In this document: positions 3,910 to 37,612 of the stretch, piece by piece
Numbering within the stretch: position 1 is the stretch's first letter
How the letters are laid out: every line of letters begins with the position of its first letter
Assembly (NCBI GenBank): GCA_016867715.1
Contig: VGIW01000025.1
Span: 1-37,612, forward strand
DNA: 37,612 nucleotides
DNA from: Candidatus Eisenbacteria bacterium
Lineage (GTDB): Bacteria; Orphanbacterota; Orphanbacteria; Orphanbacterales; Orphanbacteraceae
Direction of reading: 5' to 3'
The notes under the pieces: model-generated
Database searches by the model: none
Seen by the model: the letters and a program-made list of their open reading frames with translations, nothing else
Told to the model about the DNA's origin: nothing
Translations under genes and position numbers: made by a program

Positions 3910-3948
3910 GGTATCCGATACCGGTATCCGATACCGGTATCAGGTACC
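3910..3948. repeat. Three head-to-tail 13-mers, GGTATCNGATACC family
   Basis: Two copies of GGTATCCGATACC (3910-3922, 3923-3935) and one of GGTATCAGGTACC (3936-3948) abut with no spacer. The first form is a perfect dyad around a central base. Further members lie at 4020-4032, 4044-4056, 4098-4110, 4111-4123, 4184-4196 and 4208-4220, some with one changed base. The family reappears 29 kb away at 33047-33215. An 11-base tandem repeat (ACCGGAACAAC) follows at 3946-3967. Confidence 0.85.
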
Positions 3949-3956
3949 GGAACAAC

Positions 3957-4056
3957 ACCGGAACAACATTTGGCGGTACACGTCGAGCGAAGCACATTGG
4001 GTAGTGCGGGGGGGATTGGGGTATCCGATACGGTCGAGGTGCAGGTATCAGGTACG
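3957..4056. repeat. 100-bp perfect direct repeat, copy A
   Basis: Identical over all 100 bases to 4121-4220, at an offset of 164 bases. It contains two 13-mer family members, at 4020-4032 and 4044-4056, each with one base changed. No convincing reading frame is present. Copy B ends inside the last codons of the kinase/sigma-54 regulator gene, and copy A is followed by a decayed copy of that gene's 3' end (4057-4088). Confidence 0.9.
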
Positions 4057-4062
4057 TTTGAG

Positions 4063-4088
4063 TGGATGCCGAGAAAGCGGGCGGCCCG
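4063..4088 (-). pseudogene. Degenerate echo of the regulator gene's 3' end
   Basis: Bases 4063-4088 match 4264-4289 inside the regulator gene at 23 of 26 positions. On the minus strand they would encode IRAARFLGIH, against SRAARLLGIH in the Fis helix-turn-helix of the intact gene. Bases 4051-4061 (GGTACGTTTGA) then match the gene's last codons at 4215-4225. About 37 bases of the real gene are absent between the two blocks. It appears to be a tandemly duplicated gene terminus that has since decayed. An alternative is the end of a lost paralogous activator gene. Confidence 0.55.
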
Positions 4089-4120
4089 TATCCAGGCGGT
4101 ATCAGGTACCGATATCAGGT

Positions 4121-4220
4121 ACCGGAACAACATTTGGCGGTACACGTCGAGCGAAGCACATTGGGTAGTGCGGGGGGGATTGGGGTATCCGATACGGTCG
4201 AGGTGCAGGTATCAGGTACG
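4121..4220. repeat. 100-bp perfect direct repeat, copy B
   Basis: Second copy of the repeat at 3957-4056. Its right end (4208-4220, GGTATCAGGTACG) contains the stop codon and last two codons of the minus-strand regulator gene: the reverse complement reads CGT ACC TGA. The repeat therefore starts within coding sequence and continues downstream. Confidence 0.9.
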
Positions 4221-7200
4221 CTTGAGACGGAGCCGGCGGATCTTCTTTCGGACGGTGCTCTCGTGGATGCCGAGGAGGCGGGCCGCCCGCGACCGGTTCC
4301 AACCCGATTCCTCGAGCGCCCTGAGGAGCATCTCCTCCTCGATCGAGCGGATCTCTCCGGGGAGGTCCTTCATGTTCTCTTCCGAGCCCTCGAGGGGGGC
4401 GGGCCCGCTCGGGAACGCGGCGCGGACCTCCTCGGTCAGATGCGCCGTCTCGATGCGCGGCCCGTCGCAGAAGACCACCGCCCGTTCGATCACGTGGTCG
4501 AGCTCCCGCACGTTCCCGGGCCACCCGTAGGCGATGAGAAGGCTCTCTGCCGCGCGGGCGATCGACCGGATCTCCTTCCGGTTCCGGCGCGCGTGGACCG
4601 CGAGGAAGGTGCGCGCGAGCGCGGGGATGTCCTCCCGCCGCGCGCGAAGGGGCGGGATCTCGATCGCCACCCCGTTCAACCGATAGAAGAGATCGCTTCG
4701 AAACTCCCCCCGCTCCGCGAGAAGGGCGAGGTTCCGATTCGTCGCGGCGAGAATCCGGACGTCCGACCGGATCGTCTCCGTCCCCCCGAGCCTCTCGAAC
4801 TCCCCTTCCTGAAGCACGCGAAGAAGCTTCACCTGCGAAGCAATCGGCATGTCGCCGATCTCGTCGAGAAGAAGCGTCCCGCGATTCGCCCTCTCGAAGA
4901 TCCCCGCCTTTCGCTCCCTCGCGTCGGTGAAGGCGCCCGGCTCGTGCCCGAAGAGCTCGTCCTCGACGAGCGTGGGAGCGATCGCCGAGCAGTTGAGACG
5001 GAGGAACGGTCGGTCCCGCCGCCGGCTCTCCTGATGGATGAGATGCGCCGCGAGCCCTTTCCCCGCGCCGGTCTCGCCGAGAAGAAGCACGGCGATGTCG
5101 CTTCGCGCCGCCGCGCGAAGCTCGCGAAGCGTTCGTTGCATCGCGGGGCTCTCCGCGATGATCTCCGGAACCTCCGCCCTCCGCGCCGCCTCCTCGCGAA
5201 GAAGCGCGTTCTCCCGCTCGAGATCCTCCAAGAGCCGCGCGTTCTCGAGCGCGACGCCCGCGAGATCGGCGAGCGCCTGGAGAAACGAGAGATCGCGCGG
5301 GGTGAAGACGTTCGCCGAGCGGCAATTGTCGAGATAGACGAGGCCGATCGGCTTCCCCTTCGAGCGGAGCGGCGCGCAGGCGAAGGAAAGGATGTTGTAG
5401 GCGGCGACGCTCTCCGCCCCCTCGAAGCGCGGATCGGAGAGCGCGTTCTCCGCGACGAGAGGCTCCTCCGATTCCTCCGCCTTTCGGAAGAGCGTTCGGC
5501 TGAAGCGGGTCACGTCGCGAAGATCCTCTCCCTCGATCGACCGGGACGCGCGCGGGACGAGATCCCCGTCGGCGCCGTAGAGGAGGATGAGCCCTCGCTC
5601 CCCGCGAAGATGATCGAGCGCCTGGTCGAGAACGTGCTCGAGGACCGCGTCGCTCGCGCGGAGCGAGTTGATGATCCGTGCGATCCGGCAGATCGTGCGG
5701 AGGCCCTCCCCTCCCTCGTCGCCGCCCCCTTGAACGAGCCCCCGCGCCTCGCCGAGTGCCGCCGGCGGGGAGACCGCGCGCATGAGATCGTAGAGCGCGG
5801 CCGCCTCGTCGGCGTGCGCCTTCGCCTTTCTTCTCTCCCCGCCGCGCGCCTCGAGGGCGGCGAGATAAGCAAGCGCCTCCGCGAGGTCGAGCCGCGCGTC
5901 GAGCGCGCGCGCCGAACGGATCGCGTCGCGAAGACAGCTTCGCGCGGTTGCCGGATCCCCGCGGGCCTCCTCGTGCCGGCCGTAAAGAAGATTGAGACGG
6001 CAAGCGATCCACGGGCACTCCGTCCGCGCCGAGAGCCGCTCGGCTTTTTGAAGAAGAGCCGCCGGCGATCCCCTCCCTCCCGCGTGCAATCTCGCCTCGG
6101 CGGCGAGAAGAATGGTCTCCGCCTCCATCAACCGCTCGCCCCGCTTCGAAAAGAGACGGATCGCGCGCACAAGCCCCTTCTCCGCCTCCGCGGGGCGCCC
6201 ATCGAGGAACGCGAGACGCGCCTTCGTCCGATCGAGAAGCGCCTCGTACCTTCCCGAGAGCCGCTCGCCGAGAACCGCCTCCGCTTCCCGGAGAGCCTCT
6301 TCCGCTTCCTTCGGCTCCTCGCGGGCGATGTGCGTGAGGGCGGCGAGATTGAGCGCGTCGAAGACCGCGTACGGGTTCGATCCGGCGCGCGCAAGCGCGA
6401 GGCCCCGGCGGAGAAGCTCGATCGACTGGTCGAGGCGCCCTCTCTCCCGCGCCGTCTGACCGCGCGTGAGGAGCACGCGCACCTTCCCCCCTTCGTCGCC
6501 GAAATCTTCATAGATCGAGAAGGCCTCGTCCCACGCGCGGGCCGCTTCCTCGACCCTTCCGAGCCGGAAGAGAACACGCCCGAGATCCTCGAGGACGCGC
6601 GCCTCCTCGAGCACCTCTCCCGTCTTGCGGGCGAGAGAGAGCGCGTTCTCGAGAAGAGCGGCCGCCTCGGCGAGCCGACCGGTCCAAAGGCGGACGAGCC
6701 CGAGGTTCGCGAACGCTCCGACCGCCTCGGCCGGCGCCGCGCGCTCCAGGATGCGGGCCGCCCGCTCGTAGTGCGCTCCCGCCTCGCGCCACGCGCTCTC
6801 GTAGAACGCGACCGCCCCGAGACGCTTGAGCGTTCGACCGTTGAGCGCCGATGTTTTGCTTCGCTTCGTCGATTGATGCGCCCTCCCGAGGTGCGCCCGC
6901 GCCGCCTCCGCGTCCCCGCGCGAGAGGGCGAACCAGCCGAGATCGCATCGGATCGCGGCCTCCTCCCCCGCCCCGAAAGGTGCCCCCTCGTCGAGAAGAC
7001 GGCCGAGCGCCTTCTCCGCCTCCTTCGCGTTCCCTCGGAAGTAGCGGATCCACGCGGCGAGCCTCCGCGCCGTCCGATCGATCCCCCGCCCCTCTTCGTC
7101 CTTCGCCGCCGTGCGGCGGAGAAGGCGGAGCGCGGCGAGGGCCGCTCGCGGCCGGCCGTCGCGGTGGCGGAGCGAGGCGAGCGCGAGAAGGATCCGGGCC

Positions 7201-9320
7201 CGCTCGTTCGGCGCGCGAAGCCCGTCTTTCGAGCGGAGAGCCATCCGGTAGAGGTCGCCCGCCTCGCGCACGAGAGAGAGCTCCTCCATTCCGGCCGCCG
7301 CGCGAAGAAGCGCGCGCGCCGCCCCCGCGCGGTTTCCCGCGCGCTCCCAGTGGTGCGCCGCATCGAAATGCGCCGCCGGTCCCGCATCCCCCGCGCTCGT
7401 CTCGGCCAGCCTCGCCGCCGCGCGGTGCAAGACGCGCCTCCTCCCCGCGGGGAGAAGAGCCGCGAGCCTCTCGCGCAGGCTCTCCGAGAAGGGGGCGTAC
7501 GCGTCGCCGGCCGGCGCTTGTTCCCTGCGGACGAGACGCCTCTCGAGGAGCGGCGCGGCGAGCATCGGGAAGTCGTGCGGGCGGATCGAGAGAAGCCGCT
7601 CGAAGAAGCGCGCCTCGCGCGGGCCGGCCGGTAGCGCGATCGCCCCCGCGAGTTCACGGGAGCCTACGGAGAGCCCTTCCACCGGGATCCTCCGCGCCCT
7701 CTCCGCTTGAACGGCGGAAGGAGCGGGCGGGGACCCGTGCAGGTGGAGCGTCCCCCGCCTCTTGCGGATCGTCCCGCGCGCCGCCCACTCCCGGACGAGC
7801 GCCTCCAGCCTGGCCGGGTTCCCCTCGGAGAAGCGGGTCGCCGCCTCGAGAAGATCGGGTGCGATCGCGCCGCCGCCGAATGCTCCCTCGATCCACGCGG
7901 CAATCTCTTCGTGTGTGAAGGGATCGGTCCGCTCGATCCGCGCGAGACGCCCAGGCTCGAGCCCCGCGAAGAGAGGGCCCGGCTCGCTCCCCGCTTCCCG
8001 CGCGAGGAGATATCGGGCCGGAAGCGCGCGCCCCCTCTCGATGAGGAAGAGAAGGAATCGAGAGGAGATCTCGTCGAGGCGGTCCGCGTCGTCGATCACG
8101 ACGAGAACCGGCGGCGATCCGTCCCTTGAAAGCCGCCGGAGATCCTCCTCGAAGAGGGCGCGGAGCTTGCGGAAGAGACGCGTTTCCTCTCGGGCTCCCG
8201 CGGCGAGTGGGGAGAGTCCCGCGTCCCCTCTTCGCGCCGGCGCGAGCGGGCCGAGCGCGAGGGAGCGCCCGGAAAGAGCTGCGAAGAGCTTCTCCACGCC
8301 GGCGAACGGATGCGCCTCTCCTGATTCGGTCCCCGCCGCCGCGACGACCGGGCGACCCTCGATGCGAAGCTCCCCCACCAGGCGCCGGAGAAAGCGCGTC
8401 CTTCCCGAACCGGGATCGCCTGCGATCACGAGAGAAGGCCGCTCGTCCTCCGCGAGCCACGCGCGGACGCGCGCTTCCAGATCCTTCCTTCGCACGTTCG
8501 GCGCCACAGGGGCGAGCGCGGCGGTCTTTCGCTTCCGCCCGAGGCCGGCCTCCGCGAGAAACTCCTCGATCGAGGAAGGACGATCCGACGGCTCCTTTTC
8601 CAGAAGCCGAGCGATCGCTTTCCACAGAAGGTCGGGGAAGGGAGAGGCGGCGGGGAGAAGACGCCGCGCGTCGGTTGTGAGGTGCGCGCGTGCGAGATCG
8701 GCGGCGCTCCCCTCGAAGAGCGGGCGCCCCGCGAGGATCTCGTAGAGGGTTGCGCCAAGCGCATAGAGGTCCGCCCGGTGATCCGGATCGTCCCCGCGGA
8801 TCGCCTCCGGCGCCAGATACGCGGGCGTTCCGACGAGAATCCCGAACGTCCCCTCGCGGCGGAACGCGAGCGGGAGGAGATCGGTCCAGCAAAGATCGAG
8901 GATCTCTTCTCCGTCCGCTCGAAAGAGGAGGTTCCCCGGCTTGATGTCGCCGTGAACCTGCCCCCGCTCGTGAAGGAACGCGATCGGCTCGGCGAGACGC
9001 TTCACGAACGGCGCCGTGCGCACGTTCGGCGCGCGGAGCATCCACCGGCGCGGATCGGTCCCCTCGACGAAGGGAGAGACCGCGTAGAGCGAACCGTCGG
9101 CGATCCGCCCCGATTCGAGGATCGGCGCGATCCCCCGGTGGGCAAGATCCGTTCGAAGGCGGACATCGTCGAGGAAGAGGTTGCGGATCCGCTCGGGAGT
9201 TTCCGGCGCGACGGTCTTCACGACGACGGTCGCGCCGCCCTGCGCCGCGCGCGCGACGGCGACCCGCGTGCCGCCTTTCTCCTTGAGCACGCGCTCTTCT
9301 TCGTATCCGCGAGGGAGCAT
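4212..9320 (-). CDS. Giant Ser/Thr kinase-ATPase-TPR-GAF-sigma54-Fis regulator
   Basis: 1702 residues. Order: protein kinase (about 1-270; Lys35, HGD Asp125, APE motif in GTPAYLAPE), with DFG replaced by DLC (Asp142 kept); a STAND-like ATPase (Walker A GDPGSGRT near 301, Walker B VLVVIDDAD near 408); TPR-like helices (about 610-1160); GAF (about 1205-1350); sigma-54 AAA+ domain (GETGAGKG near 1412, GAFTDA at 1462-1467, LLLDEIGDMP); Fis-type HTH at the C-terminus. It should bind enhancer DNA and drive sigma-54 promoters, gated by ligand or phosphorylation. The ATG at 9320 with AGGA 8 bases upstream is preferred; the frame is open to 9410. A weak TTGTGG-17-TAAGAA lies at 9392-9364. It is divergent from the Rrf2/respiratory operon. 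Targets are unknown; a sigma-54 promoter at 35007-35021 is one candidate. Confidence 0.9.
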   Translation of the reverse strand: MLPRGYEEERVLKEKGGTRVAVARAAQGGATVVVKTVAPETPERIRNLFLDDVRLRTDLAHRGIAPILESGRIADGSLYAVSPFVEGTDPRRWMLRAPNVRTAPFVKRLAEPIAFLHERGQVHGDIKPGNLLFRADGEEILDLCWTDLLPLAFRREGTFGILVGTPAYLAPEAIRGDDPDHRADLYALGATLYEILAGRPLFEGSAADLARAHLTTDARRLLPAASPFPDLLWKAIARLLEKEPSDRPSSIEEFLAEAGLGRKRKTAALAPVAPNVRRKDLEARVRAWLAEDERPSLVIAGDPGSGRTRFLRRLVGELRIEGRPVVAAAGTESGEAHPFAGVEKLFAALSGRSLALGPLAPARRGDAGLSPLAAGAREETRLFRKLRALFEEDLRRLSRDGSPPVLVVIDDADRLDEISSRFLLFLIERGRALPARYLLAREAGSEPGPLFAGLEPGRLARIERTDPFTHEEIAAWIEGAFGGGAIAPDLLEAATRFSEGNPARLEALVREWAARGTIRKRRGTLHLHGSPPAPSAVQAERARRIPVEGLSVGSRELAGAIALPAGPREARFFERLLSIRPHDFPMLAAPLLERRLVRREQAPAGDAYAPFSESLRERLAALLPAGRRRVLHRAAARLAETSAGDAGPAAHFDAAHHWERAGNRAGAARALLRAAAGMEELSLVREAGDLYRMALRSKDGLRAPNERARILLALASLRHRDGRPRAALAALRLLRRTAAKDEEGRGIDRTARRLAAWIRYFRGNAKEAEKALGRLLDEGAPFGAGEEAAIRCDLGWFALSRGDAEAARAHLGRAHQSTKRSKTSALNGRTLKRLGAVAFYESAWREAGAHYERAARILERAAPAEAVGAFANLGLVRLWTGRLAEAAALLENALSLARKTGEVLEEARVLEDLGRVLFRLGRVEEAARAWDEAFSIYEDFGDEGGKVRVLLTRGQTARERGRLDQSIELLRRGLALARAGSNPYAVFDALNLAALTHIAREEPKEAEEALREAEAVLGERLSGRYEALLDRTKARLAFLDGRPAEAEKGLVRAIRLFSKRGERLMEAETILLAAEARLHAGGRGSPAALLQKAERLSARTECPWIACRLNLLYGRHEEARGDPATARSCLRDAIRSARALDARLDLAEALAYLAALEARGGERRKAKAHADEAAALYDLMRAVSPPAALGEARGLVQGGGDEGGEGLRTICRIARIINSLRASDAVLEHVLDQALDHLRGERGLILLYGADGDLVPRASRSIEGEDLRDVTRFSRTLFRKAEESEEPLVAENALSDPRFEGAESVAAYNILSFACAPLRSKGKPIGLVYLDNCRSANVFTPRDLSFLQALADLAGVALENARLLEDLERENALLREEAARRAEVPEIIAESPAMQRTLRELRAAARSDIAVLLLGETGAGKGLAAHLIHQESRRRDRPFLRLNCSAIAPTLVEDELFGHEPGAFTDARERKAGIFERANRGTLLLDEIGDMPIASQVKLLRVLQEGEFERLGGTETIRSDVRILAATNRNLALLAERGEFRSDLFYRLNGVAIEIPPLRARREDIPALARTFLAVHARRNRKEIRSIARAAESLLIAYGWPGNVRELDHVIERAVVFCDGPRIETAHLTEEVRAAFPSGPAPLEGSEENMKDLPGEIRSIEEEMLLRALEESGWNRSRAARLLGIHESTVRKKIRRLRLKRT

Positions 9321-33046: not shown

Positions 33047-33215
33047 GGTACCTGATACCGATTCCGGAGGGGTATTTCCGGAGAGGTATCGGATACCTTT
33101 CCGAGCCGATCGGGGGCGACTTCACCTGTAACTGGAACTGGAAGAAGGAGTTCACGAACCGGGTATCTGATACCGGATGGAAAGCGGTATCAGGTACCTG
33201 ATCGTATCGGATACC
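33047..33215. repeat. Second array of GGTATCNGATACC-family 13-mers
   Basis: Members: GGTACCTGATACC (33047-33059), GGTATCGGATACC (33085-33097), GGTATCTGATACC (33162-33174), GGTATCAGGTACC (33186-33198) and GTATCGGATACC (33204-33215). They are spread over 170 bases rather than abutting as at 3910-3948. The last copy ends 2 bases beyond the stop codon of the small outer-membrane-like gene. Nothing else could be recognised in 32942-33217 apart from the promoter and the gene echo listed separately. Confidence 0.85.
33131..33153 (-). pseudogene. Echo of the neighbouring gene's 3' coding sequence
   Basis: These 23 bases match 33292-33314 inside the small outer-membrane-like gene at 21 of 23 positions. 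On the minus strand the echo would encode NSFFQFQ, against NFLFQFQ in the intact gene. It lies between two 13-mer repeats, as the regulator-gene echo does at 4063-4088. It could be a decayed duplication or the leftover of an older, longer C-terminus. Confidence 0.45.
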
Positions 33216-33217
33216 TA

Positions 33218-33685
33218 CTACTCCTCGTAGAACGGGTCGCCGGTGAAGCGCGGGTGGTGAAGAAAGTAGGACGCCGAGGAGATCCGCCGGTACTGGAACT
33301 GGAAGAGGAAGTTCGGGTTCGGCTGGTACGAAAGGGAGAGGCCGGGCAGAAACTCTCCCCCCTCGTTCTCCGAAAGCCCCCGGTCGAAGGGAGAGAACTC
33401 GTAGCCGAGAAGGAACGTGACCCGAAGCGGATCCGCGAGTTGATAGCTCAACCGGTTTTCGTAGAGCCCGATCCCACGGCCGGGGGCGCCGCCCGAACCG
33501 GTCGCATAGAGAAGCGAGAATCGGTTCGTCATCGAGACCTTGGTCGGGTCCAGAATGCCGCCGAGGGCGGACGGCGTGTCGAAGACGCTCCGGGGCGACG
33601 CGCCGACCCCGGCGACGGGATCCGCGGCCGCCGCGGAAACCAAGAAGACACAGACCGCGATCAGCGAGAACAAGAACGCGCGCAC
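33218..33685 (-). CDS. Small exported, beta-strand-rich protein
   Basis: 155 residues from a GTG at 33685, which has GGGAGGTG upstream and gives a clean signal peptide (about 1-21, ending SAAAA-DP). The frame extends to an ATG at 33718, but with poor ribosome-binding sequence. The mature part alternates polar and aromatic residues (SMTNRFSLLYATGSGG, NRLSYQLADPLRVTFLLGYEFSP, FLFQFQYRR), typical of a few outer-membrane beta strands. It is too short for a complete large barrel. It follows the MglA-like gene by 56 bases and is probably cotranscribed with it. No family recognised. Confidence 0.75.
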   Translation of the reverse strand: MRAFLFSLIAVCVFLVSAAAADPVAGVGASPRSVFDTPSALGGILDPTKVSMTNRFSLLYATGSGGAPGRGIGLYENRLSYQLADPLRVTFLLGYEFSPFDRGLSENEGGEFLPGLSLSYQPNPNFLFQFQYRRISSASYFLHHPRFTGDPFYEE

Positions 33686-33741
33686 GGAGGACGCACCTCC
33701 CGAGGGGATCCGGCCCATGCCGCGGGCCGACGCTCCCGATC

Positions 33742-34947
33742 TTAGGGCCGTCCGCCGCGGCTGTCAAGGGAGAGCGCCTCGGCCTTCGCCCCCTTCTCCC
33801 GCTCGAGGCGGATCTCGAGGACGATCTCGAGCCGCACGACCCCGGCCTCCTCGTCGATTCGAACCGGCACGCGAACGACCGCGGGCTCGCCCTCGGAGAG
33901 CTTCGCCGCTATCGGGCGCTCGGCCGCCGAAGGACGCTCCCCTGCCCGAACCAGCCCCTCGAGGCTCGGAAGAGAACCGGACGGACCGGAACCCACTCCC
34001 TCGCGGTCGACGGGCGGCGCATCCCCCCGAGCGGAAGGAAGTTTCGGTGCTTGAACCATCGCGTCTCGCTCCCCGGCCGGTTTCGGAACATCCTCCCTCC
34101 TTCTTTCCGGCGGCCTCGCATCGGCGCCGGTTCCGAGCCGCGCGCTCGTCTCGGTTTCCTTCGCACGTGAATCAATCGTCTCTCTCCAGGAGCCGACCGT
34201 TCCGGAAAGGCGGACGACGTCGTCGATCGCCGCCCCGACGTCGTACACCGGCGCCTCGCGTTCGAACCGCCGGTCCGCGTCCGTGGCCGGCTTCGCGGGC
34301 TCCGAGACCCCCTCCGGCCTCTTCTCTTCCGTTCCGCTCTCCGGCTTCTCCTTCTCGGCGCCGAGTGTCTTCTCCAAGTTTTCGAAGAGGGCGCGCGTCG
34401 CCGCGCGAAACGTCTCCCAGACGCCGTCGCTTCGCACCGCCACCGCCTCGAACCAGGGCCATCCGCGCCGGTTCAGATCGGCGTTCAGCTCGTCGATCGT
34501 GAGCGGGTTCGGAAGGTCGCGCTTGTTGTACTGGAGGATCACCGGGATCTTGTCGAGAGAGAGCTGGTACTCGGAGAGGTTCTGCTCGAGGTTCGCGAGA
34601 CTCTCGATGTTCGCCTGCCGAAGCGCCGGATCGGAATCCGCCACGAAGATGATCGCGTCGGTCCCCTTGAGGACGAGCTTCCGAGTCGCGTTGTAGTGAA
34701 CCTGACCGGGCACCGTGTAGAGAAGGAAGCGCGTCCGGAAGCCGCGGATCTCGCCCGCGTTCACCGGAAGAAAGTCGAAGAAGAGGGTCCGATCGCTTCT
34801 CGTCTTCATCGAGACCATCTTCCCGCGCCGGTTCTCCGGAACCTGGCCGTAGATCCGCTCGAGGTTCGTGGTCTTTCCGGAAAGCCCCGGGCCGTAGTAG
34901 ACGATCTTCGCGTTGATCTCTTTGCCGCTGTAGTTGAACACGACCAT
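33742..34947 (-). CDS. MglA-type Ras-like GTPase with long C-terminal extension
   Basis: 401 residues. The first about 195 are a complete MglA-like G domain: G1 GPGLSGKTTN (19-28), VPGQVHYNATRKLVLKG, VADSDPALRQANIESL and NKRDLP (G4). The next about 150 residues are low-complexity, rich in Glu, Pro and Arg. A short terminal module (VVRVPVRIDEE, VVRLEIVLEIRLE) has beta-strand character. MglA proteins set cell polarity and drive motility in Myxococcus and relatives; the extension is unusual. The ATG at 34947 has GGAGG 8 bases upstream. A near-perfect sigma-54 promoter lies 60 bases upstream (35007-35021). It is divergent from the subtilase gene and cotranscribed with the small exported protein. 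No MglB partner is in view. Confidence 0.88.
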   Translation of the reverse strand: MVVFNYSGKEINAKIVYYGPGLSGKTTNLERIYGQVPENRRGKMVSMKTRSDRTLFFDFLPVNAGEIRGFRTRFLLYTVPGQVHYNATRKLVLKGTDAIIFVADSDPALRQANIESLANLEQNLSEYQLSLDKIPVILQYNKRDLPNPLTIDELNADLNRRGWPWFEAVAVRSDGVWETFRAATRALFENLEKTLGAEKEKPESGTEEKRPEGVSEPAKPATDADRRFEREAPVYDVGAAIDDVVRLSGTVGSWRETIDSRAKETETSARLGTGADARPPERRREDVPKPAGERDAMVQAPKLPSARGDAPPVDREGVGSGPSGSLPSLEGLVRAGERPSAAERPIAAKLSEGEPAVVRVPVRIDEEAGVVRLEIVLEIRLEREKGAKAEALSLDSRGGRP

Positions 34948-35006
34948 GGTCTTTGCCTCCGATCCGGTACGGCGTGAACTTTGCAGGTCTTGCGTGCGGA
35001 TAGGGG

Positions 35007-35021
35007 GCAAGAGACGTGCCA
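35007..35021 (-). promoter_or_regulatory. Sigma-54 (-24/-12) promoter of the MglA-type gene
   Basis: On the minus strand the sequence is TGGCACG-TCTC-TTGC (35021 to 35007), matching the sigma-54 consensus TGGCACG-N4-TTGC at all fixed positions. Predicted transcription starts near 34996, giving a leader of about 50 bases before the ATG at 34947. Such promoters need an AAA+ activator; one is encoded in this window at 4212-9320. Confidence 0.75.
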
Positions 35022-35155
35022 CGCAGGCTCCGGAGAAGGCCCGGAGCGGAGGCCATAACTTGTTGAAAATAAGCAGGTTTCGGCGTCCGGTCCGCGGGAG
35101 GGCGGCCCGCCGGGCGCGGGCGCGGCGGTCCGCTTGCGAAACGCACCTCCTCGCC

Positions 35156-37612
35156 GTGCATTCTGCGCGCCTCGCCGCCACGTCGCTCGTGTTCCTCGCG
35201 CTCCTCGCGGCGTCCGCGACGAGCGAGAGGATCCGCGAGGTCGGCCCCCTCGAGGATTCCGAAGGAACGCCCCCGCCTCCCCGCATTCTGTGGAAGTCGG
35301 GCGCCGCCGATGTCGCGCCGCAGGCCGATCCTTCTCTCGAAGCGCGGCGCCTTCTCGCGGAGGGGAAGACGCGCGTTCTTCTGCAGCTCCGCGAGAAGCC
35401 GGACCGGGACACGCTCCTGGCGGCCGGGATCGAGATCCTCCGCTATCTCCCGAGCGACACATGGATCGTTCGCCTGTCGGAGCCGATCGACTGGACGGCG
35501 TTCGGCACGATCGTCCGTTGGGCGGGAGAGATCCCCGCGGAGAGGAAGATCGCGCCCCCGCTCGCGGAGGAGGGGGCGGCGAAGAGCGCGGGAGCGGTTC
35601 CCCTTCGCGTCCGCTTCCACGACGACGTCGATGTCGAGGAAGCCGCCGCGATCCTTCGCGCCGCGGGCGCCTCGATGCTTGAAGCACGAACGATCGTCCG
35701 CGTGTTCGAGGCGATCCTCCCGGCTCCGGCGGTCGAGGATCTCGCCGCGCGGGACGAGGTCCTCTGGATCGCTCCCCCGCTTCCGCCGCCCGTTCCGGCG
35801 AACGACGGAATCCGCCAGAGCGCGAACATCGACTCCGTCCACGCCGCTCCTTACCTTCTCACGGGGAGCGGCGCGAAAGCGGGCATCTGGGACGGGGGCC
35901 GCGTGGACGCGCACGACGACTTCTCGGGACGCCTCACGATCGCCGACGGCGGCTCGCCGGTTTCCGATCATGCCACCCACGTCGCGGGAACGCTCGCCGG
36001 ATCGGGCGCGCGGAGCGCCCCGTACGGCGGCTTGCCCCTCCAGTGGCGGGGAGCTGCTCCTCAAGGTTTCATCTATTCATACGATTATTATGGGGACGTC
36101 CCGGCCGAGTTCGGCGCGGCGATCGGCGCGCACGGCATCGACCTCTCCTCGAACTCGTGGGTTCTCGACGTGGACCAGGCCAGGTGGGGGAACTGCTATC
36201 TCTACGGCGACTACGACGGGTACGCCCCCGAGTTCGACGAGATCGTCGCGGGCTACTTCGGAAAGCCGATCGTCCTCGTGATCGCCGCCGGCAACGAACG
36301 AAACGACGGGGACTGCGGGATCGACGCGCGGAGCGGCTACGCGTGCATGCCGCCGCCTGCGACCGCGAAGAACGCGATCACCGTCGGGGCGATCCACACG
36401 AACAACTCGGCGATGACCTCCTTCTCGAGCTACGGCCCGACCGACGACGGGCGCGTGAAGCCGGACCTCGTCGCGGGCGGCTGCCAATCGACCTACGACT
36501 ACTCGATCTGGTCCACGTGGCCGGGGAACGGGTACGGCGCGACGTTCTACTGCGGCACCTCGATGGCGGCGCCCGCGGTCGCGGGGACCGCGCTTCTTCT
36601 TTTCGAGGCGTGGCGGAGCGAGGCCGCCGCGCATCCGGGCGCGCTCTCGGGCGCCCCCTTCCCCTCGACGATCAAGGCGCTTCTTCTCGGATCCGCGGAC
36701 GATCTCGGCAACGCGGGGCCCGACTTTCGCTTCGGCTACGGGCGGATGAACGCGAAGCGCGCGGTCGATTTCATTCGGACCTCAACGATCGTTCAGGATA
36801 GCCTCGCGGACGGCGAGGTTCGGACATGGACCTTCCCCGTCCCCGCCGGCCTTCCCTCGATCCGGGTCACGCTCGCGTGGGACGATCCGGCGGGGGTTCC
36901 GCTCGCCGCGCGCGCGCTCGTGAACGATCTCGACCTCGCGCTTCTCTCCCCCGGCGGATCGACCTTCTACCCGTACGTTCTCGATCCGGGGAACCCGGCG
37001 GCCGCCGCGACGAACGGCGCGGATCACCGGAACAACGTCGAGCAGGTCGCGGTGCTCTCTCCGCAGGCGGGGATCTGGACGGCACGCGTCGCGGGGACGG
37101 ACGTTCCGGTCGGCGCGCGGCAGAGGTTCTCGCTCGCCGGCATCGACGCGCGCGCTCCGGCCGCTCCCCGCTCGTTCGGCGCCTCGGGGCTCTCCGACTC
37201 GTCGATCGCGCTCTCTTGGTCGGCCCCGAGCGAACCGGACGCGGTGGGAATCCTTCTCGTGCGAAGCACCGCGTCGCTTTCGTGGACGCCAATCGCGGGG
37301 ACGATCTACACGGCGGGAGAGAATCTCGGCGGCGGGGTCGTCGTCGTCGCGGAGACGGCGGGGACGAGCCTCGACGATTCGGGTCTCCCCTCCTGCACGC
37401 GCTTCCACTACCGCGCGTTCGCCTTCGATCGGAACCGAAACTACTCCTCCCCGTCGAGCGCGAGCAGCCTGACGACCGGGACTTGCACCGCGGTCCCTCT
37501 CGGCGGCGGCGTCCCTTCGGCCGTGCGTCTCCACGGCGCGCGGCCGAACCCCTTCAACGCGACCACGCGGATCCGCTTCGATCTTCCCACGAGCGGAAGC
37601 GCGCGCCTCGCG
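35156..37612 (+). CDS. Secreted subtilisin-family (S8) protease, 3' end cut by window
   Basis: 819 codons to the window edge, still open. Taking GTG at 35156, the first about 22 residues form a signal peptide (LAATSLVFLALLAASAT). The frame is open further upstream, and a TTG at 35060 with GGAGG 7 bases before it is an alternative that adds an Arg-rich N-terminus. A prodomain-like region (about 45-220) precedes the catalytic domain: Asp246 (GIWDGG), His275 (DHATHVAGT), Asn380 (VIAAGNE), Ser469 (GTSMAAPAVAG). A beta-sandwich and a fibronectin-III-like domain (SFGASGLSDSSIALSWSAP) follow. The last segment, RPNPFNATTRIRFDLP, begins a FlgD-like/T9SS-type C-terminal sorting domain. It is probably an exported or cell-surface peptidase. 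Divergent from the MglA-type gene. Confidence 0.88.
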   Translation, partial: MHSARLAATSLVFLALLAASATSERIREVGPLEDSEGTPPPPRILWKSGAADVAPQADPSLEARRLLAEGKTRVLLQLREKPDRDTLLAAGIEILRYLPSDTWIVRLSEPIDWTAFGTIVRWAGEIPAERKIAPPLAEEGAAKSAGAVPLRVRFHDDVDVEEAAAILRAAGASMLEARTIVRVFEAILPAPAVEDLAARDEVLWIAPPLPPPVPANDGIRQSANIDSVHAAPYLLTGSGAKAGIWDGGRVDAHDDFSGRLTIADGGSPVSDHATHVAGTLAGSGARSAPYGGLPLQWRGAAPQGFIYSYDYYGDVPAEFGAAIGAHGIDLSSNSWVLDVDQARWGNCYLYGDYDGYAPEFDEIVAGYFGKPIVLVIAAGNERNDGDCGIDARSGYACMPPPATAKNAITVGAIHTNNSAMTSFSSYGPTDDGRVKPDLVAGGCQSTYDYSIWSTWPGNGYGATFYCGTSMAAPAVAGTALLLFEAWRSEAAAHPGALSGAPFPSTIKALLLGSADDLGNAGPDFRFGYGRMNAKRAVDFIRTSTIVQDSLADGEVRTWTFPVPAGLPSIRVTLAWDDPAGVPLAARALVNDLDLALLSPGGSTFYPYVLDPGNPAAAATNGADHRNNVEQVAVLSPQAGIWTARVAGTDVPVGARQRFSLAGIDARAPAAPRSFGASGLSDSSIALSWSAPSEPDAVGILLVRSTASLSWTPIAGTIYTAGENLGGGVVVVAETAGTSLDDSGLPSCTRFHYRAFAFDRNRNYSSPSSASSLTTGTCTAVPLGGGVPSAVRLHGARPNPFNATTRIRFDLPTSGSARLA

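Follow-up and report, generated by a model that had tools for sequence, protein, structure and literature searches.

A predicted sigma-54 promoter of an mglA gene, an upstream element in common with pilA, and an apparent exchange for FliA-like promoters in relatives

An exact sigma-54-type -24/-12 site lies ahead of a gene for an MglA-type GTPase in the stretch of DNA analyzed here (all 37,612 nucleotides of contig VGIW01000025.1 from a Candidatus Eisenbacteria bacterium; herein referred to as the window). We consider it likely that this site is a functional RpoN promoter of an operon of mglA and an exported-protein gene, that it is activated by PilR through a paired element at 35134-35168, and that its sigma factor has been swapped in some relatives. 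In the mechanism we propose, closed sigma-54 polymerase would wait at TGGCACG-N4-TTGC before mglA and would be opened by an enhancer-binding protein, most likely PilR, bound at paired TTGCR and GCA-N3-TGC sequences ~115-147 bp upstream, and one signal would turn on both pilin and the pole-selecting GTPase. In some relatives mglA would have moved onto a FliA/sigma-28-like promoter and, because in the window's family a FliA-like sigma gene has a sigma-54 site of its own ahead of it, this move may amount to a step one tier lower in the same cascade. MglA-type GTPases select the pilus-bearing pole in other bacteria, and to our knowledge the coordination of pilus making with pole choice has been described mainly at the level of proteins; a promoter class and upstream element common to pilA and mglA would hence give a transcriptional link that is conserved across poorly studied phyla, and the apparent swap of two alternative sigma factors at mglA would be a natural experiment on regulon evolution.

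The -24/-12 site of mglA and its conservation

The string TGGCACGTCTCTTGC is read exactly at 35021..35007 (-), with GG at -24, GC at -12, a 10-base spacing and the TGGCAC/TTGC context, and 59 bp separate its TTGC from the mglA ATG (34947). The initial annotation had described a near-perfect -24/-12 element on the correct strand before an MglA-type gene, with every fixed consensus base present and a chance match unlikely; the string, its orientation and its distance from the gene all agree with this description (11 of 11 fixed bases), the exact pattern occurs only once in the window, against 0 expected, and was absent from all 100 dinucleotide shuffles of it. Matches with up to two mismatches occur at chance level (6, against 6.15 expected), such that the weight rests on the exact match only, and the TTGC is followed by C where A or T is preferred, a small departure from the consensus. 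The presence of a sigma-54-type site before mglA is thereby confirmed, and its reading as the promoter of that gene is supported; from general sigma-54 promoter geometry, we take transcription to start at 34995 (-), ~12 nt past the -12 C.

Table 1. Positions in the window of mglA, its predicted control elements and the adjoining genes
Feature	Position	Strand	Details
Predicted sigma-54 promoter of mglA	35007..35021	-	TGGCACG-N4-TTGC; exact match in pattern search
-24 box	35021-35015	-	TGGCACG, then 4-base spacer (TCTC)
-12 box	35010-35007	-	TTGC
Ribosome-binding site	34956..34960	-	GGAGG, 8 nt before mglA ATG; read in sequence
mglA	33742..34947	-	401 aa; solved MglA structures E 2e-68; Arf/Ras Pfam matches
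Exported protein, probable second operon gene	33218..33685	-	155 aa; GTG start; signal-peptide-like N terminus
Upstream element, whole	35134-35168		TTGCR paired with GCA-N3-TGC; also upstream of pilA
Upstream element, TTGCR half	35134..35145		TTGCGAAACGCA; paired with core in pilA upstreams
Upstream element, core GCA-N3-TGC	35156..35168		GTGCATTCTGCGC; 135-147 bp upstream of -24
Divergent subtilase (Peptidase_S8) gene, cut by contig end	35156..37612	+	PF00082 E 2e-31

The genome to which the window belongs (G000; 3.5 Mb in 172 contigs) was surveyed by pattern searches and extracted stretches of sequence. It encodes rpoN, on whose presence the initial annotation had made its reading depend, in one copy (E 5e-61), together with ~24 full sigma-54 activator domains. 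Exact -24/-12 matches number five across the genome against one for a reversed control pattern, and all five are intergenic (as judged by a simple codon-usage gene caller, with an estimated coding fraction of ~0.8-0.9) and oriented to a gene start 20-191 bp away. Matches with one mismatch are also mostly intergenic and do not exceed the control (51 vs. 59 reversed), limiting enrichment in number to the exact matches. Among the activator domains is one in the window itself, where a ~1700-aa open frame at 4212-9320 (-) joins a Sigma54_activat domain (4662-5162) to a long additional portion, its product being a putative, very large enhancer-binding protein.

Conservation upstream of orthologues, a check that the initial annotation had proposed, was assessed in 25 mglA upstream regions drawn from the window's family and from named genomes (together covering Eisenbacteria, Krumholzibacteria and Latescibacterota, with a single genome of Fibrobacterota), against a background of 39 from other phyla. 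A -24/-12 site with no more than one mismatch is present in 15 of the 25 (0.08 expected), with none on the opposite strand of the same regions, and seven have lost it and carry another type of promoter. No mglA upstream region of the other phyla has a site with fewer than three mismatches (0/39); a search for such a likeness at the MglA loci of Nitrospirota, Desulfuromonadales and the like gave nothing. The sister species shares 24 unbroken bases over the site, with differences in the flanks, genome G004 (whose MglA is 60% identical) has TGGCATG-GCTC-TTGC before mglA, and rpoN was detected in 24 of the 25 genomes. The expectation that the element should persist in close relatives holds only in part: four of six same-family relatives are without it, whereas it is kept across several phyla. 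These four losses look like replacement and not chance, since a different alternative-sigma-like promoter stands at the same place. On these comparisons, we take the predicted sigma-54 promoter of mglA to be genuine and widely conserved.

An upstream element common to pilA and mglA

The type IV pilus genes of G000 are ordered pilB, pilT, pilC, pilS, pilR and pilA, with pilR (domains Response_reg, Sigma54_activat and HTH_8) directly before pilA, and a sigma-54 site lies ~145 bp before the pilA start. Such a site (zero to two mismatches) precedes pilA in all six same-family genomes that could be read and in 10 further genomes, and a PilT-family protein was detected in 24 of 24 genomes tested, in 23 of them above the curated cut-off. 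Comparison of the regions upstream of pilA and mglA yielded a common element, TTGCR followed after 15-20 bases by GCA-W-T-S-TGC, and GCATTCTGCG in the mglA core recurs unchanged within the pilA element TCGCATTCTGCGA; mglA hence shares the upstream element of pilA. Two narrower descriptions were set aside, a perfect palindrome TGCR-N3-YGCA being too strict for pilA and a strict 13-base matrix derived only from pilA being weak at single loci (P ~0.04-0.07 at most of the better mglA loci).

The strict composite element occurs seven times (non-redundant) in 1.66 Mb of sequence, always before pilA or mglA, and its reversed control does not occur in the same sequence; a relaxed form has 17 matches, adding five mglA loci of another family. 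Counted as GCA-N3-TGC lying 50-180 bp upstream of -24, the core is found at 13 of 16 pilA and 12 of 17 sigma-54-type mglA loci, counts that are partly non-independent because a comparison of pilA with mglA had first brought the element to light. It was found at none of the 46 remaining mglA loci (0/7 FliA-type, 0/39 other-phylum) and at 2 of 23 other sigma-54 sites of G000 (0.9 expected), and the pilA element is not shared by the HU and FliA-like sigma genes. Since pilA, the gene immediately after pilSR, has the same element before its sigma-54 promoter, and since the core is nearly limited to pilA and sigma-54-type mglA, PilR is the best candidate and the likely activator of mglA.

PilR and sigma-54 act on pilA in Pseudomonas aeruginosa and Myxococcus xanthus (PMC3546991, PMC6058289, PMC6211767), and for M. 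xanthus PilR has been reported for pilA (PMC3546991). The arrangement described here resembles these PilS-PilR/RpoN systems in having pilSR beside pilA, a sigma-54 site before pilA and an NtrC-type regulator; it differs in that mglA, too, appears to have the upstream element and sigma-54 promoter of pilA.

The most substantial alternative is a real sigma-54 promoter whose activator is another of the ~24 enhancer-binding proteins, acting on mglA and pilA together or on mglA alone. Many activators are encoded in G000, several of them near sigma-54 sites; the pilA-like core is missing from three sigma-54-type mglA clades (L072; L082/L084; L087/L099); and the PilR sites of P. aeruginosa are of the TGT-N11-AGA / GTCT type, unlike GCA-N3-TGC (PMC6058289). 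We nevertheless regard this alternative as unlikely, because, of the sigma-54 promoters examined, hardly any apart from those of pilA and mglA have the common element, and because pilR immediately adjoins pilA. That mglA should be driven by a housekeeping promoter, with the -24/-12 string a chance occurrence devoid of a role, is scarcely credible: the absence of the site from most same-family relatives fits such a view, yet the number of loci with a site far exceeds expectation, none lies on the reverse strand, and the sister species has retained the site amid altered flanks.

The divergent S8 peptidase gene bounds the mglA control region and lies outside the operon, and it offers another explanation, namely that the upstream element belongs to that gene, as its start or as part of its own regulation, and that the likeness to pilA is accidental. 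The S8 gene is divergent from mglA in G004 as well, and in both genomes the core upstream of mglA overlaps its putative GTG start, GTGCATTCTGCGC encoding the conserved VHSAR with which the S8 protein begins; coding constraint could therefore contribute to the element in G000 and G004. Against this, in the family of L075-L081 the element is intergenic and paired before mglA with no divergent gene read, the core is upstream of mglA in L071/L074/L078/L085 with no S8 gene read, and CAT and TCT look like unusual codons for so GC-rich a genome (an impression, made without calculation). We judge this explanation to be very improbable, and retain PilR acting through the element as the preferred reading. 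In some loci (L281, L079, L081, L087 and L099), a conserved small gene with the motif R[YF][IV]PL[DE]I..LW lies directly upstream of mglA.

FliA-like promoters in the place of sigma-54 sites

Seven of the 25 related mglA upstream regions, four of them from the window's own family, have no -24/-12 site and carry instead T[ACT]AN-N16-[AG]CCGAT (0.1 expected), a pattern present in none of the 39 upstream regions from other phyla. All seven match the FliA/sigma-28 promoter form of TnAA, ~15-16 bases and GCCGAT, and all seven genomes encode a FliA-type sigma above the cut-off as well as flagellin. On the MglA tree, well-supported branches force two or more changes between the promoter types, and the sigma-54 state is probably ancestral, being the wider of the two.

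A FliA-like sigma factor would be the reader of the alternative mglA promoter. In every one of the seven family genomes a sigma-54-like site (with one mismatch in six, two in the other) stands before a FliA-like sigma gene, and a FliA-like sigma is also encoded in G000 and its sister (G001), in neither of which flagellin was found. The flagellar FliA paralogue is a doubtful reader of the family's alternative promoter, since the flagellin upstream regions of G003, G005 and G006, compared by eye, read TCAAGTTC...TGCGATT, unlike CTAA...TGCCGAT. Genome matches to the related pattern CTAA-N17-GCCGAT are not enriched in number, are intergenic in 20 of 22 cases and include a helix-turn-helix gene in G000, G001, G003 and G006. 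In G000, which has no flagellin, the FliA-like sigma gene (L202 15397-18747; contig C6, ~21.4-24.7 kb) lies beside genes for a response-regulator enhancer-binding protein and a PilZ-domain protein.

An HU-like gene provides a second apparent promoter swap, having a sigma-54-like site in G000, G004 and G005 and a FliA-like pattern in G003 and G006. This gene lies downstream of the pil cluster, with the sites at L264 14795, L269 10581, L272 8746 and L266 11369 and also in L254 (G006). The FliA-like pattern additionally lies ~175 bp upstream of a lysine/alanine-rich, histone-H1-like gene in L250 and L259 (G003 and G006).

Taken jointly, these patterns allow a broader reading, which we advance tentatively and hold somewhat short of probable: mglA may be a core member of the pilin regulon, under PilR and sigma-54, across several phyla, with sigma re-tiering in at least two lineages in which mglA would have passed to a FliA-type promoter one step lower and, in one lineage, the HU-like gene would have moved similarly. 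As part of the same reading, G004 (TTGCCGATCC) may show how a -12 element can overlap a FliA -10.

A sigma-54-to-FliA hierarchy governs flagellar genes, for example in Pseudomonas and Campylobacter. The present case is alike in having a sigma-54 site before the FliA-like sigma gene and FliA-like promoters downstream, and unlike it in that the FliA-like sigma is found also in genomes without flagellin (G000, G001) and that the tier of mglA varies by species. In the accessible part of a study of Bdellovibrio, FliA acts on the TAD operon (Tad/Flp pilus genes), similarly serving surface and pilus functions beyond flagella, and an MglA promoter is not described there (PMC5430801). A multi-phylum survey of sigma-54 regulons does not mention MglA (PMC12316311), and the open literature searched yielded no earlier report of mglA under sigma-54/RpoN, PilR or FliA. 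Each part is of a kind already known, and what looks new is their combination and the apparent exchange of sigma factors.

The MglA protein, its operon and repeats in the window

The initial annotation's assignment of an MglA-type GTPase stands on the match to solved structures (E 2e-68) and on residues diagnostic of Group 1 MglA (TVPGQ and an arginine adjacent to the G2 threonine; PMC4316618): a TVPGQ G3 motif (T78-Q82) and R53 beside the G2 threonine T54, both invariant in the alignment. That alignment of seven orthologues delimits a G domain (~1-195), a variable linker and a conserved C-terminal motif, VVRVPV...GVVRLEI.LE. The protein thus resembles Group 1 MglA of Myxococcus xanthus and Thermus thermophilus (PMC4316618) and differs in its long C-terminal extension and in its partner, as a search at E 0.001 gave no MglB/Roadblock (Robl_LC7) in the seven family genomes, G000 included, while detecting it in positive controls and in 10 of the other 17 genomes. 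An MglB partner is typical of Group 1 MglA and not required, 390 of 449 catalogued MglA being coupled to MglB and orphan MglA existing (PMC4316618); its absence from the window's family raises the question of what switches off this MglA, for which a role in pilus polarity would be expected.

The exported-protein gene matched no family in profile searches. Its likeliest start is the GTG at 33685, 56 bp past the mglA stop, since the sister species does not retain the alternative ATG at 33718. In the relatives read, mglA is followed 24-73 bp past its stop by a gene with a signal-peptide-like start, the same gene in same-family genomes; as the exported-protein gene so closely follows mglA, a two-gene operon, and hence the cotranscription that the initial annotation proposed, is plausible.

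The window further contains a palindrome, GGTATCNGATACC, in two clusters at 3910-4196 and 33047-33215 (11 copies, against 0.02 expected, allowing one mismatch at most). The second cluster, located between the exported-protein gene and a TPR gene, is absent there in the sister species and resembles a recent intergenic repeat insertion.
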